From NCBI RefSeq assembly GCF_005047635.1, contig NZ_SUKC01000001.1, positions 310,001 through 374,000 on the forward strand: a stretch of 64,000 bases of DNA. The letters are read 5' to 3'. The DNA comes from Arthrobacter sp. CAU 1506 (GTDB lineage: Bacteria > Actinomycetota > Actinomycetes > Actinomycetales > Micrococcaceae). The notes beneath the pieces are model-generated. The model did no database searches. It saw only the letters and a list, made by a program, of their open reading frames with translations, and was not told where the DNA came from. Of this stretch, positions 4,589 through 18,117 are shown piece after piece; positions within the stretch are counted from its first letter, which is position 1; each line of letters begins with the position of its first letter. A program made the position numbers and the translations under genes.

Positions 4589-5885
4589 CTGCGCCGACCA
4601 ATACCCACATCAGCAGAAAGCTCGCCTTTCCGAACAAGGCCGAGTTCACGAACACAGCGGCGCAGAACTCGTAGATCCAGAAAGCCAACAGCCCTGCTGC
4701 TGCGAAGTGCCCGGTTGCCTTGATCAGCCGCACCAGCGCCAAAGCCACCGCGGCCGCCAGCACAGCAAACGCGGCGAACAGCAGCAGACCCCCCTCGGCC
4801 AGTACTTGCCAGGCAGCGCCATCAAGAATCACCACCGAGCTTCGTGCGTTGATCGAATCGGCCCTCTGAGAGTGGATGCCCTCCCCCACCAGGGGACTCT
4901 GGGAAAGAATCCGCCAGGCGACATCGATGAAATCGTTGTGGATCGCCGTCGAGGCCTGCACGGAGGGGTTTCGATTGAGGAAGAGGTCCCCAATCAGGAA
5001 GGTTGAGGCGACCCGGTCAAACGCCCCCGCGGCTCCCAGTGCCAGACCGGCGAGCGCCGCCGAGGCAGGCAGCAGGCCGAAAAGCCCCCAGGCAGCTCCA
5101 CGGTTCATCCGGCGTAGCCGAACGCCCCACCGTAGCAGCGCAGGAATGAGCAGCACGGCGCAAATGGCCACGGCTCCTACGATGGCGATCCGGGAAAAGG
5201 TGGTCAGAACCGCCGCGAACAGCACGCACACGGCGGCAAGCCGTCGCCAGCTAAACCCGACAGCCAACTGGGCGGCCCACAGCGCAAGGAAAAGCACCAG
5301 CACGTTGGCGTAGACAATGGTGTTGCCGAGCAACCCGTTGGACCGGATAATATCCGTCCCCCAATAGCCAAAGAGGTCTGCGTCTGCCGGATGCAGCAGC
5401 CACACCGGCAGCACGCCGCGGAAAACGAACTGGCAGATACCGAACAACGCGCTGGCGAAGGCCGACCACATCGCCACCCGGACCAGCATCCGTCGATCGC
5501 TGCTTCGGGGCACCGCAATGGCTACCGCGACCCCCGCCACGATGTAGAGCACTTGGCTCCGCAGGTCGAGCAGCTTCGCAGGGAATGCCTCCGGCCCGTG
5601 CGGCAGCAGAGCCAAGTAGGTGGCAAGGAGGAGCCCGAATGCAGGCAGCCACGCCGGGACGACGACCCTGCCACGGCAGCGAATGGTTTCTGCCACGGCC
5701 GCCAACGCCATCATCATGACCAGTGCGTCAATGACCAGGCTGCCCGGCGCTATCCCGGCCGGTGCTGGCAACAAGTTGATGATCCCGCTCATGAACACAG
5801 CGGCAATGAGTCCGGCCGCCAACAGCGGTGCAGCAGCCGGCGCCTGCCGAACGGCTGGCCGAGCGTCCCCCACGCGCATCCCCAT
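4500..5885 (-). CDS. Wzy-like O-antigen/EPS polymerase (O-antigen ligase family membrane protein)
   Basis: A roughly 461-residue integral membrane protein with about ten or more hydrophobic helices (for example LLAAGLIAAVFMSGIINLL near the N-terminus). It has a long periplasmic-type loop in the second half, containing NDFIDVAWRILSQSPLVGEG, which resembles the conserved loop of Wzy_C/O-antigen ligase proteins. It would polymerise lipid-linked repeat units on the outer face of the membrane. I chose the ATG at 5885; a TTG at 5942 gives 19 more residues and neither has a strong ribosome binding site. The 3' end overlaps the convergent glycosyltransferase by 89 bases. The gene is divergent from the Wzz-like gene, with a 120-base shared promoter region. 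Confidence 0.8.
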   Translation of the reverse strand: MGMRVGDARPAVRQAPAAAPLLAAGLIAAVFMSGIINLLPAPAGIAPGSLVIDALVMMMALAAVAETIRCRGRVVVPAWLPAFGLLLATYLALLPHGPEAFPAKLLDLRSQVLYIVAGVAVAIAVPRSSDRRMLVRVAMWSAFASALFGICQFVFRGVLPVWLLHPADADLFGYWGTDIIRSNGLLGNTIVYANVLVLFLALWAAQLAVGFSWRRLAAVCVLFAAVLTTFSRIAIVGAVAICAVLLIPALLRWGVRLRRMNRGAAWGLFGLLPASAALAGLALGAAGAFDRVASTFLIGDLFLNRNPSVQASTAIHNDFIDVAWRILSQSPLVGEGIHSQRADSINARSSVVILDGAAWQVLAEGGLLLFAAFAVLAAAVALALVRLIKATGHFAAAGLLAFWIYEFCAAVFVNSALFGKASFLLMWVLVGAVTAEAASRDRGELHRMLTHRSIQDAPSSS

Positions 5886-14148: not shown

Positions 14149-14220
14149 TTCCGCCCATAGGATTCGAACCTATACTCCGCAGCTCCAAAGGCTGGGGTGC
14201 TGCCATTACACCAGGGCGGA
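14149..14220 (-). tRNA. tRNA-Gln (anticodon TTG)
   Basis: A 72-base cloverleaf. The acceptor stem is TCCGCCC with GGGCGGA plus discriminator A. The D stem is GTGT/GCAC with a GG-containing loop, the anticodon loop is CTTTGGA, and the T arm is ATAGG-TTCGAAT-CCTAT. The anticodon stem has four pairs with a C/C mismatch at 27-43. CCA is not encoded. The glmU neighbourhood is a common place for this tRNA in Arthrobacter-like genomes. Confidence 0.95.
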
Positions 14221-14439: not shown

Positions 14440-16029
14440 CTATTCGGGGAGCACCGAGGACGCCATGCCGGCGAGGTCGGTGTCTACTGCCTCGGTTGCG
14501 ACGGGGAGCCGAGCGCCGCTGCGCAGCAGATGGGCGATCCGGTCGGCTGCTACGGGTTTGCTGAAGTAGAACCCTTGGCCCCCGGTACAGCCCAGATCAC
14601 GCAACTGCTCGGCCTGTTCCCGCGTCTCGATTCCTTCGAAAATCGCATCCAAGCCCGCCGCACGGATGAGCTGCAGCACCGCCGCGATGAAATCCTGCTG
14701 CGATCCGTCGGCCGAATGCGTGGCAATGATGGAGCGGTCGACCTTGACCAGGTCCACCGGCAACTCGCGCAGGTAGCTGATCGACGAGTAGCCGGTGCCG
14801 AAGTCATCTATTTCGATGCCGATGCCGAGTTTGCGCAGGGCGAGCAACGAGTAAGTTTCCACTTCGCCGCCGGTGACCAGGCCGGTTTCGGTGATTTCCA
14901 GGACCAGCGATTCGGCGGCTATCCCGGAATCCCTCAAGACGCCACGGACGTAGTCCACCAAGTCGATCCGCTGCAGTTCGGCTACCGAGAGATTGACACG
15001 GATTTGGAACCCGGGGTCCAAGTCCAGCGCAGCGGACCACTCAGCAAACTGATGCGCAGCCGCCGACAGAGTCCAACGCCCCAGGTCAATGATCAGGCCA
15101 GTCTGCTCGGCCATCGGAATGAAGTCGCTGGGCATGATGCGGCCCCGAATCGGGTGGTTCCACCTGACCAGTGCTTCCACCCCCAGCGGGCGCCCGGTGC
15201 ACAGATCCACCACCGGCTGGTATTCCAGCTCGAATCCCCCGGTGGCTATGGCCCCGCGGAGTTCGGACGCCATCTGGTTGTGCAGCTGGCGCGCTTGCAG
15301 CATGTGGGACTGGAAGATCTTGATGCGATTCTGCGGATCCTTCTTCGCCTCATACATGGCCGTATCCGCGTCCAGTAGCAGGCTCTGCGAGCTCTGCCCG
15401 GCATCTGCCACTCGCACGCCAATACTGGCCTGCGGCCACACCGTCAGTTCGTCCAGCCGGATATCGTCGTTCAGGACGCCCAGGATCCGGTGGGCCACCT
15501 GGAGCGCGAGATCGGTGGTGGCACGCGGCAGCAGGATAGCGAATTCATCTCCGCCCAACCGCGCGACTGTGTCTACATCACGCACGATCGACCGAAGCCG
15601 GTTGCCAACCACCGTCAGCACGCGGTCGCCGGCGTCGTGTCCGAAACTGTCATTGACCTGCTTGAAGGAATCCAAATCCAGTAGCAGCAGGGCGGGAGCT
15701 CGCTGGCCGGATCGTGCGTCCTCGAGGGCGGCGGCCATCTCGTTGGCCAAAGCGGTTCGGTTGGCCAGACCGGTCAGGGCATCGGTCAGTGCCATCCGGC
15801 TCATGTCCCGATGAGCCTGCCGCAGCTCCGCGGTGCGGGTTTCAACGCGCCGTTCCAGCTCCGAGTAGCTCAGCTGCAATTCCTCAGCCAGGAGATTCAC
15901 CCCGGTGATCACCGCGTCGATCTCGTCCCGTGCCGCCGACGGTTCGACTCGTGTGGTCAGGTCCCCGCCGGCCAGGCTAACCATGCCATCGACCAGCCGC
16001 TGCAGCCGCGGGTCGGGGTTATGCGGCAT
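14440..16029 (-). CDS. HAMP-GGDEF-EAL protein (cyclic-di-GMP turnover)
   Basis: A 529-residue soluble protein. An N-terminal HAMP-like stretch (residues ~8-50, no transmembrane helix) leads into a coiled linker, a GGDEF domain and an EAL domain. The cyclase active site GGDEF (159-163) is intact, and the inhibitory I-site RDVD (R150, D153) sits five residues before it. The phosphodiesterase domain keeps EAL (285-287), EITE (378-381), DDFGTGYSS (408-416) and KVD (429-431), so both activities look possible. The ATG at 16029 overlaps the end of the 128-aa gene by 11 bases; the longer frame upstream is rejected. It probably tunes c-di-GMP, perhaps for the nearby EPS locus (inference). Confidence 0.9.
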   Translation of the reverse strand: MPHNPDPRLQRLVDGMVSLAGGDLTTRVEPSAARDEIDAVITGVNLLAEELQLSYSELERRVETRTAELRQAHRDMSRMALTDALTGLANRTALANEMAAALEDARSGQRAPALLLLDLDSFKQVNDSFGHDAGDRVLTVVGNRLRSIVRDVDTVARLGGDEFAILLPRATTDLALQVAHRILGVLNDDIRLDELTVWPQASIGVRVADAGQSSQSLLLDADTAMYEAKKDPQNRIKIFQSHMLQARQLHNQMASELRGAIATGGFELEYQPVVDLCTGRPLGVEALVRWNHPIRGRIMPSDFIPMAEQTGLIIDLGRWTLSAAAHQFAEWSAALDLDPGFQIRVNLSVAELQRIDLVDYVRGVLRDSGIAAESLVLEITETGLVTGGEVETYSLLALRKLGIGIEIDDFGTGYSSISYLRELPVDLVKVDRSIIATHSADGSQQDFIAAVLQLIRAAGLDAIFEGIETREQAEQLRDLGCTGGQGFYFSKPVAADRIAHLLRSGARLPVATEAVDTDLAGMASSVLPE

Positions 16030-16405
16030 TATCCCGTTCCAGCCACTCAAGGGCCTGCGGTTCGGAGTCAAAATAGCGAACGGGGCAGTCGGAAGGTTCA
16101 GCCCCCAGCACGAAGTTGGCAATCACCCGGTCCACGGGCGATTCACCGACCAAGGCAATCGCGGAAGCGTTCGTCTGCCGGCCAAGCATCGAACGAGCCA
16201 TGCGCGAAATCGAAGCCACGCCCTTCAACCGCATCAGCACGCGGCAGGGTCGGCCGCCGGAGAGAACCTGAAGCTGTGACGAGGTGCTGACGGCAACTTC
16301 GTCCGTGAAAGCAGCGCCCCTCGGCAGATCGACGCTGATAATTCCGTCGCCGGAACGGCTGATGTCTGCAGCAGCGGCGTCGACCGCGCCGGCTACGCGG
16401 CCCAT
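16019..16405 (-). CDS. Small SpoIIAA/STAS-like protein paired with the GGDEF-EAL gene
   Basis: A 128-residue soluble protein with alternating strands and helices (DGIISVDLPRGAAFTDEVAV, RVLMRLKGVASISRMARSML, SAIALVGESPVDRVIANFVL, and a C-terminal YFDSEPQALEWLERD). This pattern resembles SpoIIAA-like/DUF7793 STAS-fold proteins, though I cannot confirm the family without a search. It overlaps the downstream GGDEF-EAL start by 11 bases, implying coupled translation and perhaps a regulatory partnership. The start is the ATG at 16405; an AGGAGAA motif lies about 20 bases upstream, farther than ideal, and an in-frame TAA excludes a longer form. Confidence 0.7.
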   Translation of the reverse strand: MGRVAGAVDAAAADISRSGDGIISVDLPRGAAFTDEVAVSTSSQLQVLSGGRPCRVLMRLKGVASISRMARSMLGRQTNASAIALVGESPVDRVIANFVLGAEPSDCPVRYFDSEPQALEWLERDNAA

Positions 16406-16629: not shown

Positions 16630-17667
16630 TTACGAAGCCTGCGGGAACCCTGCGATCTCCGCCGCAACCTGGGCAGCACGGTCCTTGGCACCCGACTGGT
16701 CGAAATAGGCTCGACTTTCTTTCAAATGACGCAGCGCCGCCGAGCAATCACCTTTCACTCTGAGCGTCTTGCTGAGCAGCAAGTTGGCTTCCCCGGCGGT
16801 TTGATGAGCCATTGACGGCGACTCCTCACAGATCGGCACCAGAAGTTGGGCAGCTTCATCAATTTCGCCTCGCTGAAAGTGCCAGTGAGCCCGGTTCAAT
16901 TGGTTCATGCGGCGGACGTCATCCGTCAAGCCGATGATGGAAGCTGCCAATTCTGCACGGTCCATGCAGTCTTCCGCTTCAGTGTCGGCAATTCCAGCGG
17001 CGAATCTCATCGCTGCCGAGGCCCTATTGAACCAGGCCCAAAGCGATAGATCATTCGACGGAGACAGGTGTTCCGCCGCAAGCTGGTGGTACCTTACGCC
17101 CTCTCGCGGGTCCTGGCGAAGGAAAGCGACATTTCCAACCGCCCAGTATCCCTTTCCCGCCATTTGAGCGTCGTCCGATGCCTCCAGCAGCTTGATGAGG
17201 CACTCGCATTGCTGCCAGGCTTCATCCATTCGATCGTTTTCAGCCAAGGCTGCGACAAGAGCCGTCAGGGCGGACACTCTGATCTCACTCCGCAGTTCAG
17301 CGGACTCACTCAATGCCACAGCCGAGGTTGCGAACGTCAGCGCGTCCGACAGTTCACCTGCTCCCTGAGCGGCGACTGATTTTATCGTCAACACCCGGCT
17401 AAGTAGTTCAGGAGAGTCACCTGTCAGCGCGTGGGCTTCGAGCATCCCGGCGGTGTTAATGCATTCATAAAAGAGGCCCGCATCTCGGAAGCATTCAGCT
17501 TCCAAGAACGTCATGTGCCACCATGTCCCTTGATCGCCCTCGGCAGCAGCCTGCTCTGCGCGCTCCCTGGCGATATTGCGCGCCAATACATAGTCACGCT
17601 TGGCAAAGGCATCCCGCGCCCTCAGCTCTAGCAATATGCCATCGCCAGCACCAGCTGCTATCACCAT
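16630..17667 (-). CDS. TPR-repeat protein, candidate peptide receptor
   Basis: A 345-residue, almost entirely helical protein with tandem TPR-like helix pairs from about residue 15 to the end (for example GKGYWAVGNVAFLRQDPREG, FNRASAAMRFAAG, ANLLLSKTLRVKGDCSAALR). I see no helix-turn-helix, signal peptide or membrane segment, so it is cytoplasmic and not itself an obvious DNA binder. The ATG at 17667 follows GGGAGAGGAA. It is transcribed divergently from a 54-aa secreted prepeptide across 207 bases containing two dyads. The layout resembles TPR receptor/pheromone pairs (Rap-Phr, RRNPP) known in Firmicutes. Its G+C (about 55% in the line I counted) is lower than its neighbours. Function is inferred only from context. 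Confidence 0.72.
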   Translation of the reverse strand: MVIAAGAGDGILLELRARDAFAKRDYVLARNIARERAEQAAAEGDQGTWWHMTFLEAECFRDAGLFYECINTAGMLEAHALTGDSPELLSRVLTIKSVAAQGAGELSDALTFATSAVALSESAELRSEIRVSALTALVAALAENDRMDEAWQQCECLIKLLEASDDAQMAGKGYWAVGNVAFLRQDPREGVRYHQLAAEHLSPSNDLSLWAWFNRASAAMRFAAGIADTEAEDCMDRAELAASIIGLTDDVRRMNQLNRAHWHFQRGEIDEAAQLLVPICEESPSMAHQTAGEANLLLSKTLRVKGDCSAALRHLKESRAYFDQSGAKDRAAQVAAEIAGFPQAS

Positions 17668-17701
17668 GTGCGTTCCTCTCCCACTGTTTTGCCACCTGCG
17701 C

Positions 17702-17727
17702 AGATCAGACGACTCTCACACTGATCT
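17702..17727. promoter_or_regulatory. Dyad in the TPR/peptide divergent region
   Basis: AGATCAG (17702-17708) and its complement CTGATCT (17721-17727) form a 7-bp inverted repeat with a 12-base centre, about 35-60 bases upstream of the TPR start codon. This is the size and position of a dimeric repressor/activator site. Which protein binds it is unknown, because the adjacent TPR protein has no visible DNA-binding domain. Confidence 0.4.
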
Positions 17728-17826
17728 TATTCGCAAAGCGAGATGTCTACGGGAGCAGCGAAATGTGTCGTTTCACCTCTAGCTCCACAGCTGCCTGCTC
17801 TGTACACTTGCAATGTCGGCAGGTCC

Positions 17827-17850
17827 TGCATGGATTTGCAGATCCATGCA
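17827..17850 (+). promoter_or_regulatory. Perfect 9-bp dyad just upstream of the secreted peptide gene
   Basis: TGCATGGAT (17827-17835) and ATCCATGCA (17842-17850) are perfect inverted repeats separated by six bases, ending 24 bases before the ATG of the peptide gene. It may be an operator over the promoter/leader, or a hairpin in the 5' untranslated region close to the ribosome binding site GAGGGAG. A possible -35 (TTGCAA) lies about 15 bases upstream of the dyad, but I could not assign a firm -10. Confidence 0.5.
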
Positions 17851-17874
17851 TAACAAGTGAATGAGGGAGTCTCC

Positions 17875-18039
17875 ATGAAGAAGTTTTCCGCAACCGTTTT
17901 GGTTGCAGCCGTCCTTGCAGTGGTCGGTGCAGCCGCGCCTGCCGCAGCAGCAGATTCCTCCGATTTGTCCAACATTGTTGTGCAAAGCAAAACCTTCAAT
18001 GGTGGCCTCTCCACCAACGCAGGCAACTGGCCGCACTAA
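17875..18039 (+). CDS. 54-aa secreted prepeptide, candidate pheromone precursor
   Basis: A tiny gene with a good ribosome binding site (GAGGGAG, about seven bases before ATG). The product has a textbook Sec signal peptide: MKK, a hydrophobic core (residues ~5-20) and an Ala-rich cleavage region ending PAAAA. Predicted cleavage after A26 would leave a 28-residue peptide ending LSTNAGNWPH. It lacks cysteines and membrane segments. It is divergent from the TPR gene, and strong stem-loops lie directly after the stop. A GTG 18 bases upstream would add six residues but spoils the signal start. Small size, secretion and a TPR neighbour suggest an extracellular signalling peptide, possibly re-imported after further processing; this is inference. 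Confidence 0.75.
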   Translation: MKKFSATVLVAAVLAVVGAAAPAAAADSSDLSNIVVQSKTFNGGLSTNAGNWPH

Positions 18040-18049
18040 GTAGTTGAGC

Positions 18050-18071
18050 TGAGCGGGATGCGTTCCGCTCA
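18050..18071 (+). terminator. Short stem-loop after the peptide gene
   Basis: TGAGCGG (18050-18056) pairs with CCGCTCA (18065-18071) around an eight-base loop, 10 bases after the peptide stop codon. It precedes a larger hairpin and may form the first part of a tandem terminator or protect the 3' end of the short mRNA. Confidence 0.5.
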
Positions 18072-18077
18072 CCGGCT

Positions 18078-18117
18078 AAGGCCGTGATGCGCATCTTCGG
18101 ATGCGTGTCACGGCCTT
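18078..18117. terminator. Bidirectional terminator between peptide gene and histidine kinase
   Basis: AAGGCCGTGA (18078-18087) pairs perfectly with TCACGGCCTT (18108-18117). Inside it CGCATC-TTCG-GATGCG adds a second stem capped by a UUCG tetraloop, with a TG/TG internal mismatch. T-rich sequence follows on the plus strand (TGTGCTTT). It starts 38 bases after the peptide stop and lies six bases from the kinase stop on the minus strand, so it can end both convergent transcripts. Confidence 0.8.

Follow-up and report, generated by a model that had tools for sequence, protein, structure and literature searches.

A TPR protein and a divergently encoded small secreted Trp-Pro peptide of Arthrobacter as a candidate pheromone-receptor pair beside a c-di-GMP enzyme gene

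We analyzed positions 310001-374000 of a contig of Arthrobacter sp. CAU 1506, a stretch of 64,000 nt (the window), in which two divergent genes are found with 207 nt between their start codons. The reverse strand encodes an HTH-less TPR protein of 345 aa (16630-17667, -), considered a receptor candidate from its open reading frame, a domain search, a structural model and its conservation. On the forward strand lies a putative pheromone precursor gene of 54 aa (MKKFSATVLVAAVLAVVGAAAPAAAADSSDLSNIVVQSKTFNGGLSTNAGNWPH; 17875-18039, +), an open reading frame like the precursors beside 78 of 82 HTH-less receptors, with the frames of the relatives under purifying selection. It is preceded by the ribosome-binding site GAGGGAG (17863-17869, +), 5 nt before the ATG. 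Residues 1-26 (17875-17952, +) were classified by inspection as a Sec-type signal peptide; the lysine-plus-hydrophobic start and the inferred cleavage between AAA and D after residue 26 were both judged by eye, and similar leaders occur in relatives. If cleaved at this site, the predicted mature part comprises 28 aa and ends in LSTNAGNWPH, the C-terminal GNWPH (18022-18036, +) being the conserved pheromone core according to motif comparison. Two consecutive terminator-like hairpins follow 3' of the precursor gene (~18041-18078 and ~18079-18116, together 18041-18116, +), and for this double hairpin we calculated -51.7 kcal/mol with a z value of -6.0. A simple terminator scan picks the second hairpin (18-pair stem), although its 3 sites per 2.5 kb are about as many as in shuffled sequences (2.6). 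An earlier sequence-only reading had described the all-helical TPR protein without HTH, the divergent gene with ribosome-binding site and leader, and the terminators behind it, and all of these features were recovered here.

Between the receptor gene and a c-di-GMP enzyme gene on the same strand we found a gene for a DUF7793/SpoIIAA-like protein of 128 aa (16019-16405, -; Pfam). The enzyme itself has a HAMP-GGDEF-EAL architecture (14440-16029, -; Pfam), and its likely start, the ATG at 16029, overlaps the DUF7793 stop by 11 nt, while the listed ORF begins further upstream at a TTG (16122). A tRNA gene adjoins the GGDEF-EAL gene (14149-14220, -), and beyond the precursor gene a receiver-GAF-histidine kinase is encoded (Pfam). 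The whole genome (4.24 Mb) contains one such receptor, a second match reaching an E value of 0.05 only.

An AlphaFold2 model of the window receptor, built from two sequences, showed a mean pLDDT of 90.8 and a pTM of 0.78. Helical hairpins extend throughout and form a TPR superhelix with TPR helices from residue 6, and neither an HTH nor a Rap-type N-terminal three-helix bundle is present in the model. Pfam TPR models match the protein below cut-off only. The best structural matches were LGN TPR domains (Z ~26), and among RRNPPA structures Rap with CSF (4gyo, Z 21.4), NprR (5dbk, Z 20.8), RapF (4i9c, Z 19.9) and a phage Rap (8rsv, Z 19.7) were matched. As LGN scores above Rap (Z ~26 versus ~21) the fold is not diagnostic of pheromone receptors; the model is compatible with a peptide-binding superhelix and does not single out a family. 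No match above cut-off to known RRNPPA receptors was obtained in Pfam or NCBIfam, no RRNPPA chain appeared among the profile matches, and the Phr-leader model NCBIfam TIGR04429 matched the peptide with an E value of 0.17 only. In TPR proteins the A helices line the groove. We observed that the A helices are more conserved than the B helices (mean entropy 1.35 versus 1.91, P = 2.5e-5), and W175, N179, W210, F213, N214, R221 and W262 are kept in both HTH-bearing and HTH-less receptors. By the alignment end points (model 3-327, chain 40-366) N179 falls near chain residue 216-218 of phage phi105 Rap. Asn220 is given as the pheromone anchor in Rap in the part of PMC11343458 available to us, so that the invariant N179 may lie close to this anchor, without residue-level proof.

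Next, we investigated the pairing of receptor and peptide across relatives. From the fetched loci we obtained 114 distinct receptor cores, 84 of them HTH-less and 30 with an XRE-type HTH recognized by motif. Cores with an alignment score below 200, with fewer than 200 aligned residues or nearly identical to one already taken were dropped before counting; this filter also removed locus L081, although it has the peptide (GGLWPY twice). As pairing we counted a divergent ORF whose start is Sec-like and which contains Trp-Pro beyond residue 18. Of the 82 HTH-less cores with 1 kb or more of upstream sequence, 78 had such an ORF, and these span 8 genera (g1, g9, g18, g22, g25, g28, g31 and g32). As controls we used other genes in the fetched regions as well as the opposite strand: 11 of 245 other genes of the same stretches met the criterion, and two of these hits are one genuine peptide, that of L081, encountered from two genes. 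Fisher's test gives P ~1e-57 under the assumption of independent genomes, a value that calls for caution given the relatedness of these genomes. The four HTH-less receptors without a peptide by these criteria are L137, L059, L117 and L010; L117 is remote with unsure HTH status, and the first receptor of L010 lies near a contig end. At L059, where no peptide was found, the receptor homologue contains an internal TAG, perhaps a decayed pair. For the HTH-bearing cores we found a divergent Sec-type Trp-Pro precursor in 21 of 30 and none in the remaining 9. Within the genus the receptor occurs in 3 of 10 genomes and a clear peptide match in those same three (E at most 1.3e-6); in the other seven no peptide match below E 0.06 was obtained and the pair is absent. 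Across the family, which is inferred to be Micrococcaceae because the relative L005 is Arthrobacter sp. APC 3897, a receptor of either form (HTH-bearing or HTH-less) is matched in 221 of 395 genomes and in 17 of 32 genera. From the comparison with control genes, the co-occurrence in the genus and the coding test described below, it is confirmed that the pair of TPR gene and small ORF is real and beyond chance.

The core motif of the precursors is (G/N/D)-X-Trp-Pro-X, often C-terminal and present in one to five copies. Trp-Pro occurs in all 78 HTH-less precursors by definition, being part of the search criterion, yet the flanking residues are restricted as well. In the 119 copies of these precursors the position two before Trp is G in 92, N in 20, D in 6 and S in 1; the residue directly before Trp is mostly W or N, and Pro is mostly followed by N, D, H, Y or F. 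The precursor ends in WP or WPx in 64 of 78 cases. Two to five Trp-Pro copies were observed in 29 of 78 HTH-less precursors and in 20 of 20 HTH precursors tallied, here mostly as GNWPD; L148, whose precursor starts with TTG, is part of the 21 of 30 pairing count and absent from the motif tallies. Pooling all 98 precursors gives 232 Trp residues beyond position 24, of which 178 are followed by Pro and 49 by another Trp. The HTH-TPR regulators at L148, L044, L041, L096 and L102 are accompanied by precursors that contain Trp-Pro four to six times in tandem.

For evaluation of the coding potential we compared 41 disjoint pairs of precursors picked by receptor identity alone and obtained a pS of 0.425 and a pN of 0.127 (pN/pS 0.30; 0.35 after leaving out the Trp-Pro region). 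In 19 pairs of equal length the ratio was 0.17 in frame versus 1.98 and 2.50 in the shifted frames. An earlier test with 20 pairs of at least 70% peptide identity had given 0.12, which is biased low because choosing pairs by peptide identity lowers pN. An RBS-like 4-mer precedes 96 of 98 precursors, compared to 487 of 1960 (25%) random upstream positions. The precursor frames thus evolve as coding sequence under purifying selection, and translation is supported by this and by the ribosome-binding sites, without direct measurement. The sequence-only reading had taken the locus for an actinobacterial counterpart of TPR receptor/secreted pheromone pairs, an idea that would fall if homologues lacked a neighbouring small secreted peptide, if its tail were not conserved or if the small ORF were not translated. 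It is supported by our data and has survived those of these tests that could be run.

We further asked how peptide and receptor vary together. In a tree of 106 rows, 27 HTH and 79 HTH-less receptors are split by one branch (96/87). The window receptor groups with two relatives from the genus (100/99) on a long branch (0.88) and has substitutions at several positions conserved elsewhere. The peptide 5-mers, mapped as labels on this tree, require 45 changes versus 76.9 in shuffles. Peptide type may therefore follow receptor lineage, as judged from the label test, which shows clustering only and which near-copies also help to pass. Five loci (L066, L067, L068, L149 and L151) contain two adjacent receptors, both with visible peptides; the cores are GNWP(D/G) in one lineage and D(D/N)WP(H/N) in the other. 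With their different cores these double loci form a natural specificity test. L010 and L150 also hold two receptors each, but one of them is located at a contig end and has no visible peptide.

To describe the gene neighbourhood we considered the HTH-less receptors whose stretch spans 8 kb or more and searched up to 8.5 kb in both directions (score at least 300); some loci hold two receptors and are counted twice. Of 58 HTH-less receptors, 56 had a GGDEF-EAL gene on their own strand, 48 times downstream and 8 times upstream. Our first tally, restricted to the downstream side, had given 43 of 57, and the upstream position was then seen in one lineage. The two misses are L133 and L120; in their relatives L076 and L065 the gene lies farther out than those two stretches extend. 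Near the HTH-bearing receptors in long loci no GGDEF-EAL gene was observed (0 of 4). Homologues of the other neighbours are found less often within the same distance: DUF7793 in 43, GT2 in 17, GH18 in 16 and the kinase in 17 of 58 cases. In 22 neighbourhoods the GGDEF-EAL family is present in 20 (all except the two HTH loci), the next family besides the receptor in 8, and one gene cluster of the hybrid kinase in 4. The genome of the window encodes four EAL proteins in 4.24 Mb, from which we infer that chance proximity of one would amount to about 2 percent. All of 40 GGDEF-EAL ORFs contain intact motifs; since the ORFs were preselected for EAL and a GGDEF-like motif, this check cannot measure loss. 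Both the c-di-GMP gene and the hybrid kinase had been suggested as downstream targets of the receptor. The linkage in 56 of 58 cases strengthens the former guess, whereas the kinase is far less constant. All 10 genomes of the genus encode DUF7793 proteins, the closest matches being found in the three receptor-bearing genomes, and this protein is a possible partner. L066 and similar loci include a GH18-CBM5/12 protein and a GT2 synthase, the latter resembling cellulose and PNAG synthases below cut-off.

Taken together, the TPR protein and the small ORF very probably form a pheromone-receptor pair, with binding, processing and uptake being inferred in the absence of data. According to the proposed mechanism, the 54-aa precursor would be translated and exported by the Sec route, the export being inferred from the leader, and proteolysis would free a short peptide with a G-N-W-P-H core. 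An oligopeptide permease would take up this peptide, which would then occupy the concave groove of the TPR receptor, the product of the divergent gene; uptake and groove binding are inferred from the pairing, the fold, the conservation pattern and the RRNPPA precedent. The receptor, having no DNA-binding domain, would act through contact with another protein, for which the co-encoded DUF7793 protein and/or HAMP-GGDEF-EAL enzyme are the most likely candidates, and population density would in this way set c-di-GMP, a step deduced from the conserved linkage. Within the same pheromone family, the HTH-bearing relatives may be the form that acts as a transcription factor. In some related genera a matrix polysaccharide is a likely output, as inferred from the GT2 and GH18-CBM genes in their loci. 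We consider it probable that the locus as a whole is a peptide-pheromone system whose receptor acts on the c-di-GMP enzyme and/or the DUF7793 partner, and, with less confidence, likely that c-di-GMP is the output of the pair, for which the target is inferred from linkage.

It is possible, though rather unlikely, that the peptide is a pheromone for the receptor while the output is not the c-di-GMP enzyme, with GGDEF-EAL being separately regulated or under a route of the hybrid kinase type. The 224 nt between the receptor and DUF7793 genes of the window leave room for a separate promoter, the enzyme gene is upstream rather than downstream for 8 of 56 receptors, and the HTH-bearing relatives in long loci lack it; however, the gene accompanies nearly all HTH-less receptors and is on the same strand in 56 of 56 cases, while most other neighbours change. 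An improbable alternative is an effector function of the secreted small protein, as a bacteriocin-like, surface-active or matrix peptide, with the TPR protein conferring immunity to it or serving as its chaperone or regulator. Bacteriocin loci, too, pair short secreted peptides with a cytoplasmic protein, as is generally known, and the matrix-type neighbours in some genera would fit a surface role. However, the short core is conserved while the linkers vary, and it occurs in up to five repeats, which is the pattern of a processed signal; the association with HTH-TPR regulators extends beyond the family, and no dedicated peptide exporter or modification enzyme was found among the Pfam-identified neighbours of the few annotated loci. 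That a small ORF beside an ordinary TPR protein was merely over-read by chance can practically be discounted: short ORFs with a hydrophobic start are common in GC-rich DNA and the control genes did yield some with Trp-Pro, but the pairing of 78/82 versus 11/245, the coding-type evolution and the RBS-like 4-mer in 96/98 versus 25% speak against it.

In a search with HTH-type receptors, 46 of 394 genomes of the class gave matches, and four of these belong to the family of the window. Outside the family, 12 of 36 HTH-TPR loci have a divergent Sec-type Trp-Pro precursor versus 1 of 36 on the opposite strand, and by the same test the other 24 have none. In total 43 loci were looked at and seven were dropped as their HTH was not recognized by motif, including L162, which has a divergent precursor ending in LDWPWI. 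L103 and L105 occur both here and in the pairing count above, one paired locus (L103) being shared. All receptors examined for peptides outside the family carry an HTH. The cores found outside the family are DISWP x3 (L169), DIEWP x2 (L161), DIGWP x2 (L164), xWPxMCC (L172, L176, L177 and L179-L181), LNWPKCC (L163), WQWPI (L188) and GGSWPT x3 (L103; same order as the window). Whether Actinomycetes have their own class-wide Trp-Pro pheromone family is in our view evenly balanced. Such a family would comprise single or tandem Sec precursors divergent from TPR receptors, with HTH forms as transcription factors outside the window's family and one HTH-less lineage in it connected through protein contact to the GGDEF-EAL enzyme encoded alongside, and in some genera also to the synthesis of exopolysaccharide.

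Some further peptides were observed. L173 and L178 have divergent secreted peptides upstream of an HTH-TPR gene that end in GWVYPG and GPWGYPI, possibly a drifted core, and were left out of the counts. Secreted peptides with a terminal Cys-Cys also lie next to HTH-TPR genes; those with WPxMCC and NWPKCC, at the loci named above, are divergent, and VWCC and LTCC peptides at L175 and L182 are convergent and lie downstream of the HTH-TPR gene. At L005 (Arthrobacter sp. APC 3897; 5631-5690, -), L042, L097 and L082, a short divergent leaderless ORF lies upstream of an HTH-bearing receptor and ends in VGNWPD, VGDWPD or RVNWPF. Tandem copies, HTH-bearing relatives and the wider spread had not been expected from the sequence-only reading.

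Among known systems, Rap-Phr (RRNPPA, Bacillota) is similar in combining an HTH-less cytoplasmic TPR protein with an adjacent small exported precursor. The target of Rap is a response regulator, in Bacillus Spo0F or ComA. At our loci a kinase with a receiver domain is close by in a minority only, and the GGDEF-EAL enzyme is the constant neighbour. Tandem pheromone copies also occur in Phr, as stated in the accessible sections of PMC11343458, and the excerpt of PMC9765709 at hand describes the HTH-less Rap as derived and related to the HTH-bearing NprR; the HTH-less group here has HTH-bearing relatives as well. Unlike in Rap, for which these two sources, as far as available, give an N-terminal three-helix bundle as a feature, no such bundle is present in the window model, and no sequence homology was detected. 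The window system further differs in its Trp-Pro core, linked GGDEF-EAL gene, divergent gene order and Actinomycetes host. Since it has neither an HTH nor a three-helix bundle, the window receptor may work like Rap but is not classed as Rap. The HTH-bearing relatives are comparable to NprR-NprX and PlcR-PapR (RRNPPA), which consist of an HTH-TPR regulator and an adjacent exported propeptide; in contrast, the window receptor has no HTH, and the precursors are of the Trp-Pro type, divergent and often multi-copy. Of the RRNPPA features, the C-terminal TPR or TPR-like receptor domain (AlphaFold2 model, TPR superhelix matches) and the adjacent small exported propeptide gene (window and 78/82, export from the leader only) are present, whereas the N-terminal HTH or three-helix bundle is absent from the window receptor, the HTH occurring in the sister group only. 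AimR-AimP of phage arbitrium also has an exported peptide and, according to the available text of PMC9765709, an HTH-bearing TPR-like receptor, but our loci come from bacterial genome assemblies. A mobile origin was considered, and no relatives were found in viral contigs (pattern-based) or in plasmids or phages (tblastn with the window protein); for this reason an arbitrium-like role was dropped. The leaderless ORFs ending in NWPD, DWPD and NWPF resemble leaderless communication peptides with RopB-type receptors, as far as these are covered in the part of PMC10518010 available, while the window peptide has a leader.

Intracellular peptide-receptor quorum sensing is placed in Bacillota, with small molecules as the usual actinobacterial signals, in the accessible parts of PMC10075063 and PMC13220807, and RRNPP_detector covers Firmicutes according to the former. 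One review, of which a portion was available (PMC4748050), also mentions cyclic or modified peptides in Actinobacteria and lists TPR among the domains predicted by bioinformatic evidence for quorum sensing in several actinobacterial genera; a comparable pair of receptor and peptide is absent from that portion. In the open-licence literature we found no such actinobacterial system, but priority is not proven because most subscription papers and all bioRxiv preprints were outside the scope of our search. BldK of Streptomyces takes up a 655-Da peptide, as reported in the available part of PMC9640686. The Trp-Pro family may bear on this peptide, although no match is shown: the few cores calculated by hand (~586-658 Da) gave no mass match. 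The locus points to an undescribed cell-to-cell signalling family outside Firmicutes, and a pheromone feeding directly into c-di-GMP would be an unusual arrangement. As the pheromone core is readable from genomes, it provides short, synthesizable peptides to test in many species.
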